Notes under the pieces: model-generated
The model's input: only the letters and a program-made list of their open reading frames with translations
Told to the model about the DNA's origin: nothing
Database searches by the model: none
NCBI GenBank assembly: GCA_944388245.1
Contig: CALXIA010000011.1
Span: forward strand, 1 to 54,558
DNA: 54,558 nucleotides
Reading direction: 5' to 3'
Origin: an uncultured Gemmiger sp.
Lineage (GTDB): Bacteria; Bacillota; Clostridia; Oscillospirales; Ruminococcaceae
Translations under genes and position numbers: made by a program
Shown here: one piece after another, positions 422-15,487 of the stretch
Numbering within the stretch: position 1 is the stretch's first letter
Layout of the letters: each line of letters begins with the position of its first letter

Positions 422-1615
422 TCAGCCGAAGATGTTGATCAGGATACCGGCCGCCACAGCGCTGCCGATCACGCCGGCCACGTTGGGGCCCATGGCGTGC
501 ATCAGCAGGAAGTTCTGGGGATTCTCGGCCTGACCGACCTTCTGGGACACACGGGCCGCCATGGGCACCGCGGACACGCCCGCGGAACCGATCAGCGGGT
601 TCACCTTGCCGTGGGTGGCCCAGCACATCAGCTTTCCGAACAGCACGCCGCCGGCGGTGCCGAAGCCGAAGGCCAACAGGCCCAGCACGATGATCTCCAC
701 CGTTTCCAGGGTCAGGAAGGTGTTGGCGCTGGTGGTGCAGCCCACCGACACGCCCAGGAAGATGGTGATGATGTTCATCAACTCGTTGCCGGCCGTCTTC
801 TGGATACGGTCCACAACGCCGCTTTCCTTCATCAGGTTACCCAGCATCAGCATGCCCACCAGCACAGCGGAATCCGGCAGGATCAGGCTGACGATGATGG
901 TGCAGAGGATGGGGAAGATGATCTTCTCAGTCTTGGAGACGGTGCGCAGCTGGCTCATGACGATCTGGCGTTCCTTCTTGGTGGTGAGCGCCTTCATGAT
1001 GGGCGGCTGGATGACCGGCACCAGAGCCATGTAGCTGTAGGCCGCCACGGCGATGCTGCCCAGCAGATGGGGCGCCAGCCGGGAGGTAACGAAGATAGCG
1101 GTGGGGCCGTCCGCGCCGCCGATGATGCCGATGGAAGCCGCTTCAGCGCCACTGAAGTTCAGCCACTTGGCGCCCAGGAAGGTTGTGAAGATACCCAGCT
1201 GGGCGGCAGCGCCCAGCAGCAGGCTCTTGGGGTTGGAGATCAGGGGGCCAAAGTCGGTCATGGTGCCGATGCCCAGGAAGATCAGCGGCGGATAGATGCC
1301 CAGCTTAACGCCCATGTAGAGCATGTCGCCCAGGCCGCCGTTGTTGAGAATATCGATCCAGGAGGGGTGCAGCAGCACTTCGTCGCCCACACCGATAAAG
1401 TATTGCATGTGGATGATGTTACTGCCCGGCAGGTTGGCCAGGATCATGCCGAACGCGATGGGCAGCAGCAGCAGCGGCTCAAACCCGCGCACAATGGCCA
1501 GGTACAGCAGGAAACAGCCCACCACCAGCATAACGATGTACAAGGGCTCCTGCGCCAGGCCGGTGAAACCGGAATTCTGGATAATGCTAATAAAAGTTTG
1601 CCAGATTGCGCTCAT
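422..1615 (-). CDS. oadB: Na+-translocating decarboxylase beta subunit (OadB/GcdB family)
   Basis: This is the membrane carboxyl-lysine decarboxylase and Na+ carrier of oxaloacetate, glutaconyl-CoA or methylmalonyl-CoA decarboxylases; it exports Na+ as the carboxybiotin is decarboxylated. The 397-residue protein has many hydrophobic segments and the family blocks [13 protein letters not shown] (about 163-175), [10 protein letters not shown] (about 191-200) and [17 protein letters not shown] (339-355). In these blocks D169, N339, G343, S348 and R355 correspond to residues reported as needed for Na+ coupling in Klebsiella OadB. An AAAGGAG site precedes the ATG. The gene lies 19 bases behind the gamma-subunit gene and shares its promoter. 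No alpha (carboxyltransferase) or biotin-carrier gene is nearby, so the substrate cannot be named. Confidence 0.9.
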
Positions 1616-1634
1616 TCCTCACACAGCTCCTTTC

Positions 1635-2057
1635 TCAAAACGGGGCGGTGTTGGACTGAACACCGGCCTGACCCCAAGCCTTGCGGCCGCTTGCCTGTGC
1701 GGCGCGGGACACGGGTTTGATGGAGCGGATGGTAAAGCCGCCCTGCTCCATGCCGGCCACCGCGGCGGCGATCACCGCCACGATCTCCGGGGTCACGGCG
1801 CCGGGAGCCGGCAGGACCGCGGCAGCGGACACATTGCCGCCCGCTGCGGGCGCGGAAGGCGCGGGCGCCGACGGGGCCGGCGCGGACTTGGCCTTCTTTT
1901 TGGCCTCCAGCGAATCAAAGAACTTGCCCTGCAGGGCAATGATCAAGGTCAGCAGGATCAGGATCAAAAAGACCAGCAGCAGACCTGTGATGACCACCGT
2001 CAGATCATTGGGTTCCGGTGTGATCGCGAGCAGGAACGGCATAAAGGATGTTCCCAT
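1635..2057 (-). CDS. oadG: Decarboxylase gamma subunit-like membrane protein (OadG type)
   Basis: The 140-residue protein has one membrane helix (about residues 18-42), then a Lys-rich stretch, an Ala/Pro/Ser linker (APAPSAPAPSAPA) and a C-terminal region with an EIVAVIAAAVAG helix. This is the build of OadG-like subunits that hold the alpha and beta subunits together. The start at 2057 was chosen over an upstream in-frame ATG (2141) because an AGGAGGT site lies 7 bases before it and the promoter -10 lies between the two. It is the first gene of a two-gene unit with the beta subunit. Family assignment rests on architecture and context rather than on a strongly conserved motif. Confidence 0.75.
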   Translation of the reverse strand: MGTSFMPFLLAITPEPNDLTVVITGLLLVFLILILLTLIIALQGKFFDSLEAKKKAKSAPAPSAPAPSAPAAGGNVSAAAVLPAPGAVTPEIVAVIAAAVAGMEQGGFTIRSIKPVSRAAQASGRKAWGQAGVQSNTAPF

Positions 2058-2105
2058 AGAACAAACCTCCTTTTGAGAATGGGACTGTGAACAATATCTT
2101 GTAAC

Positions 2106-10745: not shown

Positions 10746-11645
10746 TTACTTGCCGCTCTTGCGGCCGGTTTTCTTTTCCGCCGGCTTCTTCTCCTCTGCC
10801 TTGGGGGCGGCAGGCTTCTTGGCCGGCTCAGTCTTGGTCGCCACCATGGCCTTGGGCGTTTCCGCCTTCACCGCGGGCCGGGTCTCCGGCTTGGTGGTCA
10901 GGCTGGTCGCCGCTTTGGGAGACTCTTCCGCCTTAGGCGCAGCTTTCGCCTTGGAGGCAGCTTCTGCCTTGGAGGCAGCTTCTGCCTTGGAGGCAGCTTC
11001 TGCCTTGGGGGCAGCTTCTGCCTTGGAAACAGTTTCCGCTTTGGGGGCGGCGGGCTTGGACGCCGCTTTTTTCGCGGCCGGTTTCTTTTCCACGGTCTTG
11101 GAGGCCGCCTTTTTGGCCGTCGGCTTCTTTGCGGCCGGTTTCTTTTCCGCGGCTCCGGCGGATTCCGCCTTGGGGGCGGCGGCTTTCTTTTCCTTGACCT
11201 GGCTGATGCTCCACAGCTGGTTTTCCCCGTTCACATCCTGCCAGATCTGCACATGGGCGCCGTTTTCCGTGCTCATCCCCACCACATCCAGGCACTTGCC
11301 GGCCAGGTTAGACTTGATCTTGAAGCGGCCGTCGTTGGTGGCTTCCAGCACCCACAGCTGGCTGGACGCGGGCGCGCCCTCCCACTGATGCACCCAGGTG
11401 CCGTCGGTCACGCCGCCGTCCACCAGATCCAGCATCTTGCCGGTAAAGCGGTTCTGGATCCGGTACACACCCTCGCCGGCGCGCACAAAGTTCCACTGCT
11501 GCCAGGGCTCGCCCGCGCTGGCGTACAACTGGATGGCCGCACCGTTCTCGGTGTTGAAATCCGCGACCTCCAACACCTTGCCAGTGGCGGCGGTAATGGT
11601 ATAAAATTGATCTGCCTGGATAATGGTCTGGCTGGTTTTTTTCAT
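10746..11645 (-). CDS. Ricin-type beta-trefoil protein with histone-H1-like Lys/Ala tail
   Basis: The 299-residue protein has two parts. Residues 1-150 form a ricin B-like beta-trefoil with three Q-x-W repeats (QQWNF 49-53, SQLWVL 95-100, NQLWSI 142-147), a carbohydrate-binding fold. Residues 151-299 are almost only Lys, Ala, Pro, Glu, Ser and Thr, with KKPAAKKPTAKK type runs and tandem SKAEAA hexapeptides, resembling histone H1 or AlgP tails. No signal peptide or anchor is visible, so it is predicted cytoplasmic unless exported in another way. The start at 11645 follows a GGAGAGAGG site and is preferred over an upstream in-frame codon at 11759 because the promoter lies upstream of both and the trefoil starts here. 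Function unknown. Confidence 0.82.
   Translation of the reverse strand: MKKTSQTIIQADQFYTITAATGKVLEVADFNTENGAAIQLYASAGEPWQQWNFVRAGEGVYRIQNRFTGKMLDLVDGGVTDGTWVHQWEGAPASSQLWVLEATNDGRFKIKSNLAGKCLDVVGMSTENGAHVQIWQDVNGENQLWSISQVKEKKAAAPKAESAGAAEKKPAAKKPTAKKAASKTVEKKPAAKKAASKPAAPKAETVSKAEAAPKAEAASKAEAASKAEAASKAKAAPKAEESPKAATSLTTKPETRPAVKAETPKAMVATKTEPAKKPAAPKAEEKKPAEKKTGRKSGK
10950..11030. repeat. Tandem 18-bp repeat in the lectin tail
   Basis: About four copies of an 18-base unit (GCCTTGGAGGCAGCTTCT as written on the plus strand), encoding a six-residue AASKAE/SKAEAA unit on the minus strand. The inner copies are identical; the outer ones differ at one to three bases. This suggests recent expansion by slippage. 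Confidence 0.8.
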
Positions 11646-11779
11646 AGTTCCTCTCTCCTTCAAAACACACTGCGTCTGCCCGGCAACCTGCCAGGATAGG
11701 AAACAGAGTCCACAACAGGCCCGACCAAAGGCAGAACGGCTATATGGCGCGCTTTGCAAAGGGGCGGGCCTATGTTCCG

Positions 11780-12635: not shown

Positions 12636-12665
12636 TTGACATTCTGCCCCCAAACATGGTACTCT
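12636..12665 (+). promoter_or_regulatory. Promoter of the yybP-ykoY-type leader
   Basis: -35 TTGACA (12636-12641), 18-base spacer, -10 TACTCT (12660-12665), directly before the riboswitch. Confidence 0.65.
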
Positions 12666-12671
12666 GCTCTT

Positions 12672-12815
12672 TAGTAAAAGGGAGTAGCCGGCGGGCCGCC
12701 AGCAAAGGCGGGCCGCAGCGGTTTGCGTCAGGTCGGGCTCACGGGCCCCGCTGCTGCTATAATTGGCAAGACTTTTACCACCGTGCCGCACAGGCCGGCG
12801 GTAAAGGTCTTTTTT
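12672..12815 (+). ncRNA. yybP-ykoY (Mn2+) riboswitch with overlapping terminator
   Basis: The aptamer begins with GTAAAAG (12674-12680) running into GGAGTAGC and ends with GGCAAGACTTTTACC (12765-12779); GTAAAAG pairs with CTTTTAC to form P1. GGAGTAGC and GGCAAGA are the conserved loop elements of this class, with a GCGTCA element between them. The 3' arm (ACTTTTACC) also pairs with GGTAAAGGT (12800-12808), followed by TTTTTT, to form a terminator (12770-12815). P1 and terminator are therefore mutually exclusive, as in known ON switches of the family, where Mn2+ favours read-through. Recognised from memory of the consensus; not scored with a covariance model. Confidence 0.82.
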
Positions 12816-12854
12816 GTTGTCTCGGCTTTCCCGAAAAGCAAAGGAGTGGAGCGA

Positions 12855-13967
12855 ATGGAATACCTGTACGAAAACATCCTTCTTCTGGACTGGAAGATGG
12901 TGGTCATGTGGGTGATCGGCGGGCTGCTGATCTACCTGGCCATCAAGAAGGACATGGAACCCAGCCTGCTGCTGCCCATGGGCTTCGGCGCGATCCTGGT
13001 GAATCTGCCCATGTCCGGCGCGGTGACCCAGGGCGCCGAGGAGGGCGTGCTGGACGTGCTGTACAACGCCGGCATCGCCAACGAACTGTTTCCCCTGCTG
13101 CTGTTCATCGGCATCGGCGCGATGATCGATTTCGGGCCCTTGCTGCAGAATCCCAAGCTGCTGGTATTCGGCGGGGCGGCCCAGCTGGGTATCTTTTTGA
13201 CCCTGAGCCTGGCCTGTCTGTTCGGCTTTGACCTGCAGGACGCGGCCAGCATCGGCATCATCGGCGCGGCCGACGGCCCTACCGCCATCTTTGTATCCCA
13301 GTGGTACGGCTCCAACTACACCGGCGCCATCATGGTGGCGGCCTACAGCTACATGGCCCTGGTCCCTCTGGTGCAGCCGGTGGTCATCCGGGCGCTGACC
13401 ACCAAAAAGGAGCGGATGATCCGGATGCCTTACCAGCCGGCCAACGTGAGCCGCACCACCCGCATCCTGTTCCCCATTCTGGTGACCATTGTGGCCGGCC
13501 TGATCGTGCCCCGCAGTGTGGCGCTGGTTGGTTTTCTGATGTTCGGCAACCTGCTGCGGGAATGTGGCGTGCTGAACAGCCTGTCCGAGACCGCGCAGAA
13601 CGTGCTGGCCAACCTGATCACCATCTTTTTGGGCATCACCATCGCCAGCCGGATGCAGGCCGAGCAGTTCCTCTCGCCGGACACCCTGCTCATCCTGGCG
13701 CTGGGTCTGCTGGCCTTCGTCTTCGACACGGCCGGCGGCGTGATCTGCGCCAAGATCATCAACCTGTTTGCCCGCACCAAGGTCAACCCGATGATCGGCG
13801 CCTGCGGCATCTCGGCCTTCCCCATGTCCAGCCGCGTTGTGCATAAGATGGGCCTGAAGGAAGACAACCAGAACTTCCTGCTGATGCACGCGGCGGGGGT
13901 CAATGTGGGCGGCCAGATCGCCTCGGTGATCGCCGGCGGCCTGCTGCTGAACCTGATCGCCCGCTAA
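12855..13967 (+). CDS. OadB-family Na+ carrier paralogue under Mn2+-type riboswitch
   Basis: The 370-residue membrane protein is a clear paralogue of the beta subunit at 422-1615, about 27 residues shorter, with the same blocks: [13 protein letters not shown] (D140), [10 protein letters not shown] (163-172) and NPMIGACGISAFPMSSR (N311, G315, S320, R327). All positions matching the known Na+-coupling residues of OadB are kept. Its N-terminus is shorter and different, and no decarboxylase or biotin carrier is encoded nearby. An AAAGGAGTGG site precedes the ATG. The gene follows a Mn2+-type riboswitch and is followed 18 bases on by a 41-codon membrane peptide gene. It may be a decarboxylase beta subunit or a stand-alone transporter; see findings. 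Confidence 0.88.
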   Translation: MEYLYENILLLDWKMVVMWVIGGLLIYLAIKKDMEPSLLLPMGFGAILVNLPMSGAVTQGAEEGVLDVLYNAGIANELFPLLLFIGIGAMIDFGPLLQNPKLLVFGGAAQLGIFLTLSLACLFGFDLQDAASIGIIGAADGPTAIFVSQWYGSNYTGAIMVAAYSYMALVPLVQPVVIRALTTKKERMIRMPYQPANVSRTTRILFPILVTIVAGLIVPRSVALVGFLMFGNLLRECGVLNSLSETAQNVLANLITIFLGITIASRMQAEQFLSPDTLLILALGLLAFVFDTAGGVICAKIINLFARTKVNPMIGACGISAFPMSSRVVHKMGLKEDNQNFLLMHAAGVNVGGQIASVIAGGLLLNLIAR

Positions 13968-13985
13968 ACAAAGGAGGAATCCATC

Positions 13986-14111
13986 ATGCTGAATACCGCG
14001 CTGTTTGTGGAGAGCCTGCTCTATCTGGGCAAAGGGATGCTGGGCATCCTGATCGTGATGCTGCTACTGGCCGGCTGCATCGCCCTGCTGAACCGGATCT
14101 TTCACGAATAA
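13986..14111 (+). CDS. 41-residue single-helix membrane peptide (mini-OadG?)
   Basis: This small frame reads MLNTALFVESLLYLGKGMLG, then a hydrophobic helix (about residues 18-35, ILIVMLLLAGCIALL), and ends NRIFHE-stop. An AAAGGAGG site lies 7 bases before the ATG, and the gap to the upstream OadB paralogue is 18 bases, so it is very likely translated with it. OadG-type subunits begin with a single helix of this kind, so this may be a gamma subunit reduced to its membrane anchor. It is followed at once by the promoter of the fluoride leader. Confidence 0.75.
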   Translation: MLNTALFVESLLYLGKGMLGILIVMLLLAGCIALLNRIFHE

Positions 14112-14145: not shown

Positions 14146-14151
14146 GGGTGC

Positions 14152-14260
14152 CAGTGGGAATGAAGTTCTCCCCTGCCCGGCATCCGTCCGGCGCGAACCG
14201 CTCAAAATTCTGGAGCTGATGACTTCTGCCGCCCTGTGCGCAGAAGCCATCGGCTTTTTT
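14152..14260 (+). ncRNA. Fluoride (crcB motif) riboswitch with terminator
   Basis: The leader has GTGGGAATGAAGTTCTCCC (14154-14172), matching the GGNGAUGNNGUUCNCC hairpin of fluoride aptamers, then AACCGC (14206-14211) and GAGCTGATGACTTCTGCC (14213-14230), matching the conserved AACCGC...GCUGAUGACUNCU core. The segment GCTGATGACTTCTGC also pairs with GCAGAAGCCATCGGC, followed by TTTTTT (terminator 14215-14260), so aptamer folding and termination compete and fluoride would switch the gene on. The insert between the two parts (GCCCGGCATCCGTCCGGCGC) is larger than in minimal examples. Recognised from memory of the consensus; not scored with a covariance model. Confidence 0.82.
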
Positions 14261-14296: not shown

Positions 14297-15487
14297 ATGC
14301 TGTTAAGTCTTGCGTGGATCTTTTTGTCGGGCCTGGCGCTGGGTGGGCTGATGCAAAAACTGGGCCTGCCCGGTTTGCTGGGGATGCTGCTCACCGGCAT
14401 CCTGCTGGCGCAGCTGGGGGCCATCGACCCCTCGCTGCTGGGGATCTCCGCCTCCCTGCGGGAGATCGCGCTGGTGATCATTCTGCTGCGGGCGGGGCTG
14501 AATCTCTCCGCGCAGGACCTGAAACGGGCCGGCCGGCCGGCGGTGCTGCTCTGCTTTCTGCCCGCTGTGTGCGAGATCGTCGGCATCCTGCTGCTGGCCC
14601 CGCCGCTGCTGGGCTGCACCCGGCTGGAGGCCGCGATCCTGGGTGCTACCCTGGCGGCGGTATCCCCGGCGGTGATCGTGCCCCGGATGCTGCGGCTCAT
14701 GGAGGAGGGCTGGGGCTCTGCCCGGGCGGTTCCCCAGATGCTCATGGCGGGGGCCTCGGTGGACGATGTGTTCGTGATCGTGCTGTTTACCGCCTTCACC
14801 GGTCTGGCCCAGGGGGATGGCTTCTCCGCGCTTCAGCTGGCCCGCATCCCCACCTCGATCCTGCTGGGGGTGGCCGTGGGGCTCGTCTGCGGGCTGGCTC
14901 TGAACCAGCTGTTCCGGCGCGTCCATCTGCGGGACAGCGCCAAGGTGCTGATCCTGCTGAGCGTGTCCTTTCTGCTGGTGAGCGCCGAGGATGCTTTCAC
15001 CGGCTGGCTGGGCTTCTCCGGCCTGCTGGCGGTGATGGCGATGGGGGCGGCTCTCCAGGCCCGGTACGGGCTGGTGGCCGGCCGGCTCAGCGGCAAGTTC
15101 GGCAAGCTGTGGGTGGCGGCGGAGGTGCTGCTGTTCGTGCTGGTGGGTGCGGCGGTAGACCCGGCCTATCTGCTCCAGGCCGGCCCGGCCATGCTGGCGG
15201 TGATCGCAGGCGCTCTGGCGGTGCGGATGGCGGGGGTCATGCTCTGCGTGGCCGGCACCCGGCTGACAAAACGGGAACAGATGTTCTGCGCCATCGCCTA
15301 CTGCCCCAAGGCCACGGTGCAGGCGGCTATCGGGCCGTTGCCGCTGGCGATGGGGCTGGCCTGCGGGCCGATGGTACTCACCGGGGCGGTGCTGGCGATC
15401 CTTCTCACCGCACCGCTGGGAGCGCTGGTCATTGACCACAGCTATGCAAAACTGCTGCGTCAGGACAGGCAGGCCACGCCACAGTAA
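14297..15487 (+). CDS. Cation:proton antiporter under fluoride riboswitch
   Basis: The 396-residue protein is nearly all membrane helices (about 11-12), of the CPA (Na+/H+ antiporter, NhaP/KefB-like) type: GLALGGLMQKLGLPGLLGMLLTGI at the N-terminus, LRAGLNLS (about 68-75), AVSPAVIVP and GASVDDVFVIVLF with the paired acidic residues of the exchange site (D-D). Na+/H+ antiporters are one of the known gene classes behind fluoride riboswitches, where they are thought to help remove fluoride or the protons that come with HF. The ATG at 14297 follows a GGGAGGAA site and lies after the riboswitch terminator; the frame is open upstream but would read through the riboswitch. Confidence 0.9.
   Translation: MLLSLAWIFLSGLALGGLMQKLGLPGLLGMLLTGILLAQLGAIDPSLLGISASLREIALVIILLRAGLNLSAQDLKRAGRPAVLLCFLPAVCEIVGILLLAPPLLGCTRLEAAILGATLAAVSPAVIVPRMLRLMEEGWGSARAVPQMLMAGASVDDVFVIVLFTAFTGLAQGDGFSALQLARIPTSILLGVAVGLVCGLALNQLFRRVHLRDSAKVLILLSVSFLLVSAEDAFTGWLGFSGLLAVMAMGAALQARYGLVAGRLSGKFGKLWVAAEVLLFVLVGAAVDPAYLLQAGPAMLAVIAGALAVRMAGVMLCVAGTRLTKREQMFCAIAYCPKATVQAAIGPLPLAMGLACGPMVLTGAVLAILLTAPLGALVIDHSYAKLLRQDRQATPQ

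Follow-up and report, generated by a model that had tools for sequence, protein, structure and literature searches.

The membrane subunits beta (OadB) and gamma (OadG) of Na+-pumping oxaloacetate decarboxylases and the yybP-ykoY (Mn2+) riboswitches represent two described systems, both of which have relatives at a single locus of an uncultured Gemmiger sp. (GenBank assembly GCA_944388245.1; 1.97 Mb, 75% complete). The locus lies on contig CALXIA010000011.1 (C11), the 54,558 nucleotides of which were analysed as a whole and are called the window below. Its gene order is a structured leader, an OadB-type gene (oadB2), and, 18 bases after the oadB2 stop, a gene for a small peptide with a single helix (Table 1). 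The switched OadB2-peptide pair makes a good candidate for a manganese exporter of a type not yet recognised. In the literature searched, neither OadB nor its small partner was connected with Mn2+; such a connection may be recorded in the gene lists of the two 2015 papers defining the Mn2+ riboswitch, which the search did not cover.

The closest described protein system is the Salmonella decarboxylase StOAD (beta-gamma complex, PDB 6iva and 6iww; PF03977 and PF04277). In its beta subunit, D203, S382, and N412 were assigned to Na+ binding, E40 was reported to matter for decarboxylation without a strong effect on Na+ binding, and R304A and N311A inhibited decarboxylation moderately, also without a strong effect on Na+ binding (PMC7274780). 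The same account describes a beta fold that is that of CitS and NapA and is related to NapA and NhaP, competition between Na+ and H+, and residues 2-43 of gamma bound to beta; gamma without residues 61-84 showed severely reduced binding of alpha, and its C-terminal tail was needed for alpha, not for beta (PMC7274780). As for the RNA, an invariable adenosine of L3 contacts Mn2+ in crystal structures (PMC6754395), and in the Lactococcus lactis switch, which has the same arrangement of P1 and terminator as the oadB2 leader, Mn2+ stabilises the helix and transcription passes (PMC11087558). One review terms the class 'OFF' switches (PMC11477304); the L. lactis account is followed here. A Na+ riboswitch described before some oxaloacetate decarboxylase genes is a different RNA (PMC9337991), and none is listed in the window at the Rfam gathering score.

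Like StOAD, the OadB2 pair has an alignable beta subunit with all Na+-site residues and an adjacent small gamma helix. It differs in that no alpha or biotin-carrier gene was found beside it and its gamma appears to lack the alpha-docking tail; in addition, R304 and N311 are relaxed, E77 and Q354 are new and invariant, and control by a Mn2+ riboswitch is predicted.

The oadB2 leader, the genes behind the same RNA, and the OadB2 clade

The leader shares with the RF00080 class the L1 motif GGGAGTAGC (12680-12688) and its 3' side GGCAAGAC (12765-12772; pattern GCNAGAC), an L3 NCA with the invariant A, and a P1 helix (12674-12680 pairing with 12772-12778), the 3' strand of which also sits in the 5' arm of the terminator hairpin (fold z-score -3.5). 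The L1 G-G-A and the L3 adenosine are invariant in 29/29 OadB leaders; the adenosine is A12730 in the window and was superposed on the Mn2+-contacting A of the crystal structures by sequence alone. In the covariation analysis, 86.8% of cells were paired, 21 of 27 pairs had changed on both sides, and none of 500 shuffles scored as high.

The leader differs from the described class in preceding an OadB-type gene, not the usual exporters, and in scoring below the Rfam gathering threshold (RF00080, 11.1 bits against 45). The Rfam model SSRC10 gave 27.4 bits (threshold 56), and none of 15 leader-bearing relatives reached E 0.1 with RF00080. The leaders of mntP and alx, both annotated as Mn2+ exporters in Escherichia coli K-12 records, served as controls; both leaders are Mn2+ riboswitches. 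With RF00080, the mntP switch scored 41.6 bits, also below 45, and the alx switch was not listed at E<=1; the threshold is thus not decisive, and RF00080 was rejected as sole judge of the leader. The RF00080 model in the Rfam release used looks narrow. SSRC10 ('Streptococcus sRNA 10') outscores it on window 12686-12816 and on loci L014, L021, L025, and L033 (27-34 bits), so that SSRC10 may itself be a streptococcal yybP-ykoY RNA.

Two covariance models were built, R1 from 29 aligned leaders upstream of OadB relatives and R2 from 41 leaders of MntP and P-type ATPase genes only. R1 found the E. coli mntP (E 3e-4) and alx (E 0.0075) leaders just 5' of their genes in 6.5 kb, and over the whole window it had no match besides the oadB2 leader, which R2 placed at exactly the aptamer interval of Table 1. 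Both models pick the same 35 of the 71 OadB2 loci of the family, 29 of these 35 being in the training set of R1 and none in that of R2. Because R1 supplied the training leaders of R2, the models depend on each other in part; anchors from outside are E. coli mntP (R1 and R2), alx (R1; not listed by R2), and the genes behind the best class-level matches of R2 given below. The first-pass annotation had described a yybP-ykoY-type leader with P1 overlapping a terminator, and the motifs, the R2 match, and the covariation agree with it; the Rfam score it proposed as a check missed the threshold, and support for the class came from R1 and R2. Judged from its sequence, the leader belongs to the yybP-ykoY (Mn2+) riboswitches and has a terminator that overlaps P1, and a response to Mn2+ is predicted.

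Across 148 genomes of the window's family, R1 gave 97 matches in 71 genomes. Thirty lay at OadB2 loci already known, and for 60 of the remaining 67 the genes behind the match were read; L161, L168, and L175 were left out because a longer other frame hid the gene (MntP there), which leaves 57. The first proteins behind these 57 were 20 cation P-type ATPases, 18 MntP, 9 Na_Ca_ex, 3 CitMHS, 2 Na_Pi, 2 TetR, 1 Band_7, 1 truncated OadB (OAD_beta fragment), and 1 without a match. Of 291 class-level genomes, R1 hit 115; for 68 of the listed matches genes were assigned by similarity to a labelled reference set, yielding 20 Na_Ca_ex, 18 ATPases, 16 OadB2, 4 MntP, 4 CitMHS, and 6 unassigned. The share of OadB among R1 matches is biased upward because R1 was built from OadB leaders. 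The 16 switched class-level OadB2 loci belong to ten families other than the window's, and R2 also lists 14 of them; the genes behind its 30 best class-level matches were 14 MntP, 10 P-type ATPases, 1 Na_Ca_ex, 5 unassigned by the reference set, and no OadB2.

In related genomes, then, genes for MntP, P-type ATPases, and Na/Ca exchangers stand behind RNA of the same class, in some cases in a genome that also has OadB2. These proteins resemble OadB2 in being cation membrane transporters behind the same RNA class in the same family and class; they differ in belonging to other Pfam families, OadB2 itself being grouped, through its relative StOAD, with the CitS/NapA-like elevator proteins (PMC7274780). 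A switched OadB2 is the only match of this RNA in 17 of the 31 family genomes that have one, counted under strict filters by which weak matches may be lost.

Some further genes were seen behind this RNA. The Na/Ca exchanger, CitMHS, Na/Pi, Band_7, and TetR genes (L141-L200, L301-L368) perhaps point to a wider Mn2+ regulon than usually listed. The TetR-family regulator genes stand behind Mn2+-riboswitch-like RNA at L155 and L179 (genomes G146 and G002), with similar genes further downstream, and at L315 the RNA precedes a protein that by eye resembles a KUP potassium carrier.

OadB2-type proteins, defined by at least 58% identity to the window protein, were found at 71 loci; 69 of the 148 family genomes account for 70 of these loci, and another member of the genus for the last. 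In a scan of named genomes, at least 584 OadB relatives of any kind were found, the closest among those listed being nearly all labelled Clostridia or Oscillospiraceae and kin; 80 were retained (67-77% identical to the window's), and all 80 fall in OadB2. R1 matched at 27 of these 80 loci, including Gemmiger formicilis ATCC 27749 and Bittarella massiliensis GD6, and 26 of the matches lie directly upstream; at L241 the match lies about 1 kb upstream, and this locus was counted as leader-less. OadB2 is thus common, and ten further families have switched copies.

The 22 OadB1 and 143 OadB2 rows of the protein tree separate with support 100. The OadB1 set comprises seven proteins encoded beside OadA and others assigned by the tree; L108 is an OadB1 outside the 71 OadB2 loci. 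The truncated protein of L077 was excluded from the tree and the residue counts, and the tree also excludes L219, L235, and L236 (no upstream sequence) and the duplicates L224, L230, L254, and L102. No leader was found at 21 OadB1-clade loci, seven of which adjoin OadA. Mapped on the OadB tree, presence of the leader requires 29 changes, of which well-supported branches force ten or more; this suggests that the link between RNA and OadB2 was kept, lost, or made many times. An alternative riboswitch before leader-less OadB2 genes was considered and rejected, as 19 such loci scanned with Rfam at the gathering score gave a single cobalamin riboswitch, at a stretch edge. One OadB2 comes from a contig labelled Methanobrevibacter (L208) and is placed among Bacillota on the tree, probably a binning error.

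The OadB2 protein, its partner peptide, and alpha subunits

OadB2 matches the OadB of PDB 6iva with E 1e-98, residues 15-368 of 370 aligning in two stretches, and its predicted fold follows from this match. Residues were mapped via the PDB alignment and compared in 150 OadB2 and 22 OadB1 proteins; D203, S382, N412, E40, R304, and N311 are numbered as in Salmonella OadB. D203, S382, N412, E40, Y229, N373, and G377 are invariant in both groups. R304 and N311 are kept in 22/22 OadB1, whereas R304 is R in only 10 of 150 OadB2 (S in 107) and N311 is N in 63 (K in 72); the window protein has S242, N249, and E35 at the positions of R304, N311, and E40. T148 is T in 22/22 OadB1 and I in 146/150 OadB2. 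Two polar residues, E77 (G134 in Salmonella) and Q354 (V416, four residues past N412), occur in 150/150 OadB2 and 0/22 OadB1. Further residues new in OadB2 are I319 and F322 (each 150/150), which flank S320 at the tip of the second hairpin, and A138 (146/150), which flanks the tip of the first. D337 was dropped as a clade-specific residue, since S. Typhimurium OadB also has D. The Na+-site residues of OadB2 are thus intact, and the constraint on R304 and N311 seems lost in most of the clade. The contrast of OadB1 and OadB2 offers a natural test of decarboxylation versus ion-transport residues in OadB.

A like peptide was found by pattern search (up to 80 residues allowed) behind 127 of the 148 OadB2 genes with 200 nt of downstream DNA; 21 loci gave none. 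These mini-gammas have a median of 46 residues (30-80; n=128 peptides), and by their length and the StOAD comparison they appear to lack the alpha-docking tail. The peptide family is already named: NCBIfam NF040909 (OadG_rel_small, 'OadG-related small transporter subunit') matches 35 of 40 scanned peptides at E<=1 (best 1.2e-10), and PF04277 matches 25 of 40 (best 2.6e-5). The NF040909 name gives no substrate or Mn2+ link, and the window copy matches neither model.

The flanks of the OadB2 loci had a median of 3 kb on each side (less than 1 kb upstream in eight and downstream in 12). In these flanks OadA was present at 1 of 151 loci (L270); the biotin carrier was not searched over all loci. 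Among frames of at least 70 residues at 72 loci, no conserved third gene was seen beside the pair, and a conserved third operon gene was rejected: the most frequent other cluster of neighbours occurs at 6 of 72 loci, and an 11-locus cluster consists of antisense frames over OadB. Elsewhere in the genomes, PF02436 proteins (OadA or pyruvate-carboxylase type) occur in 121 of 148 family genomes and large Carboxyl_trans proteins (the other alpha type) in 103; a single one of the 69 genomes (G091) has a Carboxyl_trans gene less than 10 kb from OadB2, at a distance of 6.7 kb and with OadA behind it. Genome G050 (96% complete) has a switched OadB2 as its only OadB, and neither a PF02436 protein nor a Carboxyl_trans match better than 1e-30 was found in it; its Carboxyl_trans matches are confined to two short genes that lie next to each other and close to a gene for a biotin carrier, an arrangement of the acetyl-CoA-carboxylase type.

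The window itself holds both types: OadB1 is preceded by an OadG of about 150 residues, and OadB2 is preceded by the riboswitch and followed by the 41-residue peptide. The OadG-OadB1 pair (422-2084, minus strand) has no alpha gene on its own contig. The OadA-type (PF02436) and Carboxyl_trans matches of the source genome are on contig C2, side by side, as is often seen in the family; the arrangement recalls a transcarboxylase. Three claims of the first-pass annotation stand with these results, namely a second OadB paralogue that keeps the D, N, G, S, and R residues, a stand-alone beta subunit with no decarboxylase alpha near, and a reduced gamma subunit.

Proposed function and alternative explanations

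Probably, OadB2 and its mini-gamma form an alpha-independent, Na+- (or H+-) dependent elevator carrier for manganese homeostasis, most likely exporting Mn2+ (or Mn2+/Ca2+) against Na+. The pair would have evolved from the membrane half of a Na+-pumping decarboxylase. High Mn2+ would stabilise P1, the terminator would be prevented, and the operon would be ON; beta and mini-gamma would assemble as in the solved Salmonella complex, and the complex may transport by the elevator mechanism of the structurally related CitS and NapA. Having no energy from carboxybiotin, it would have to run as a secondary carrier, and its regulation by the riboswitch points to Mn2+ (perhaps also Ca2+) as the cargo; the core domain would then move Mn2+ out against the entry of Na+ or H+, in place of carboxybiotin-driven Na+ pumping.

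With somewhat less confidence, we lean towards a widespread unrecognised Mn2+ exporter family in gut and rumen Clostridia, in which the decarboxylase membrane half, without the enzyme and the docking tail, was remodelled near the ion site (Q354; E77 in a neighbouring helix) into a Na+/Mn2+ exchanger and repeatedly came under riboswitch control. Since the window OadB2 matches decarboxylase-subunit profiles, such genes are likely named decarboxylase subunits. If they encode Mn2+ exporters, part of the manganese homeostasis of gut anaerobes has been misread, and the case would show that a membrane subunit of a primary pump can act by itself as a secondary carrier.

Several observations weigh against the exporter proposal. 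The leader is absent at 36 of the 71 family OadB2 loci, so Mn2+ control of OadB2 is not universal. MntP was found in 134 of the 148 genomes; of the 69 OadB2 genomes 66 have it (not G000, G050, and G125), and given this co-occurrence a simple replacement of MntP by OadB2 was rejected. The decarboxylation residue E40 is invariant in 150/150 OadB2, and six OadB2 proteins retain both R304 and N311. At L270 the OadA gene starts 2.7 kb upstream, and G050 has a second partial Biotin_lipoyl match on C6 (23.4 bits, cut-off 22.1). In four genomes (G010, G082, G111, G125) a PF02436 protein was found and no OadB other than OadB2, and there OadB2 may pair with a distantly encoded alpha. In G082, G111, and the window genome the PF02436 protein adjoins a Carboxyl_trans gene and may belong to another enzyme. 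Finally, Mn2+ transport by the pair is what we infer from its co-regulation and anatomy, and the Mn2+ export or tolerance function put forward by the first-pass annotation stands to that extent.

The intact Na+ site would also suit a Na+/H+ (or Na+/solute) antiporter that works without alpha, leaves Mn2+ itself untransported, and adjusts Na+ or pH when Mn2+ (or Ca2+) rises, aiding other exporters. So would the same RNA before some CitMHS and Na_Pi genes, which to our knowledge are not known as metal exporters, and so would a fold related to NapA and NhaP and the competition of Na+ and H+ in StOAD (PMC7274780). We consider this rather unlikely: OadB2 as the sole match of the RNA in 17 of 31 genomes suits a main effector better than an accessory one, and the new invariant Q354, one helix turn from a Na+ ligand, suggests a changed ion selectivity.

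An export function is also favoured over the other function offered in the first-pass annotation, that of a spare, Mn2+-conditional beta subunit for a biotin decarboxylase with its alpha gene elsewhere: most of the clade has lost the docking tail and the constraint on R304/N311, and no decarboxylase-type alpha (neither PF02436 nor large Carboxyl_trans) was matched in G050. A candidate alpha does exist on C2 of the window's genome and, as PF02436 or large Carboxyl_trans proteins, in many genomes of the family, and the invariant E40 and the four genomes with PF02436 and OadB2 as only OadB would fit a spare subunit; given OadA beside a single one of 151 loci and an OadB1-long gamma pair elsewhere in the same window, we regard it as improbable. 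Least probable is a reading in which Ca2+ counts as ligand no less than Mn2+ and the pair exports Ca2+ (or Ca2+/Mn2+), to which a pneumococcal yybP-ykoY RNA reported to bind Ca2+ and Mn2+ (PMC9495176, citing Martin 2019) and the co-regulated cation P-type ATPases and Na_Ca_ex proteins would point, and against which stand MntP, the Pfam-named manganese efflux pump, as second commonest partner in the family and the Mn2+-discriminating A invariant in 29/29 OadB leaders.

Other features of the window

The features of the OadB2 locus and of the OadG-OadB1 pair used for comparison are listed in Table 1. The promoter call is weak because the promoter scan did not list it, and the long OadG was taken as 149 residues, its reading frame being open to 168.

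Table 1. Positions of the OadB2 locus and of its comparators in the window
Feature	Position	Strand	Basis
Possible promoter, TTGACA-18-TACTCT	12636..12665	+	read from sequence, immediately 5' of the leader
yybP-ykoY (Mn2+) riboswitch aptamer	12672..12781	+	R2 42.8 bits, E 3.9e-8; R1 82.5 bits (window leader in R1 training set)
Intrinsic terminator, predicted expression platform	12770..12815	+	fold; a separate scan lists the upper stem of the hairpin
OadB2, stand-alone OadB-type Na+ carrier, 370 residues	12855..13967	+	PF03977, 510.8 bits
Mini-OadG peptide, 41 residues, one hydrophobic helix, apparently without alpha-docking tail	13986..14111	+	relatives' peptides
OadB1 paralogue (comparator)	422..1615	-	PF03977, 535.9 bits
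Long OadG (comparator) with C-terminal extension, upstream of OadB1	1638..2084	-	PF04277, 3.5e-15

Directly behind the Mn2+-switched pair, a separate unit consists of a fluoride riboswitch (14147-14235, 42.4 bits) followed by a Na_H_Exchanger-type antiporter (14297-15487); Rfam also finds the fluoride riboswitch in 3/3 genus relatives scanned (L004-L006). Upstream, the frame at 10749-11651 (minus strand) encodes lectin domains of the Ricin-B type and, after them, a long repeat-containing K/A/E/P tail of low complexity.

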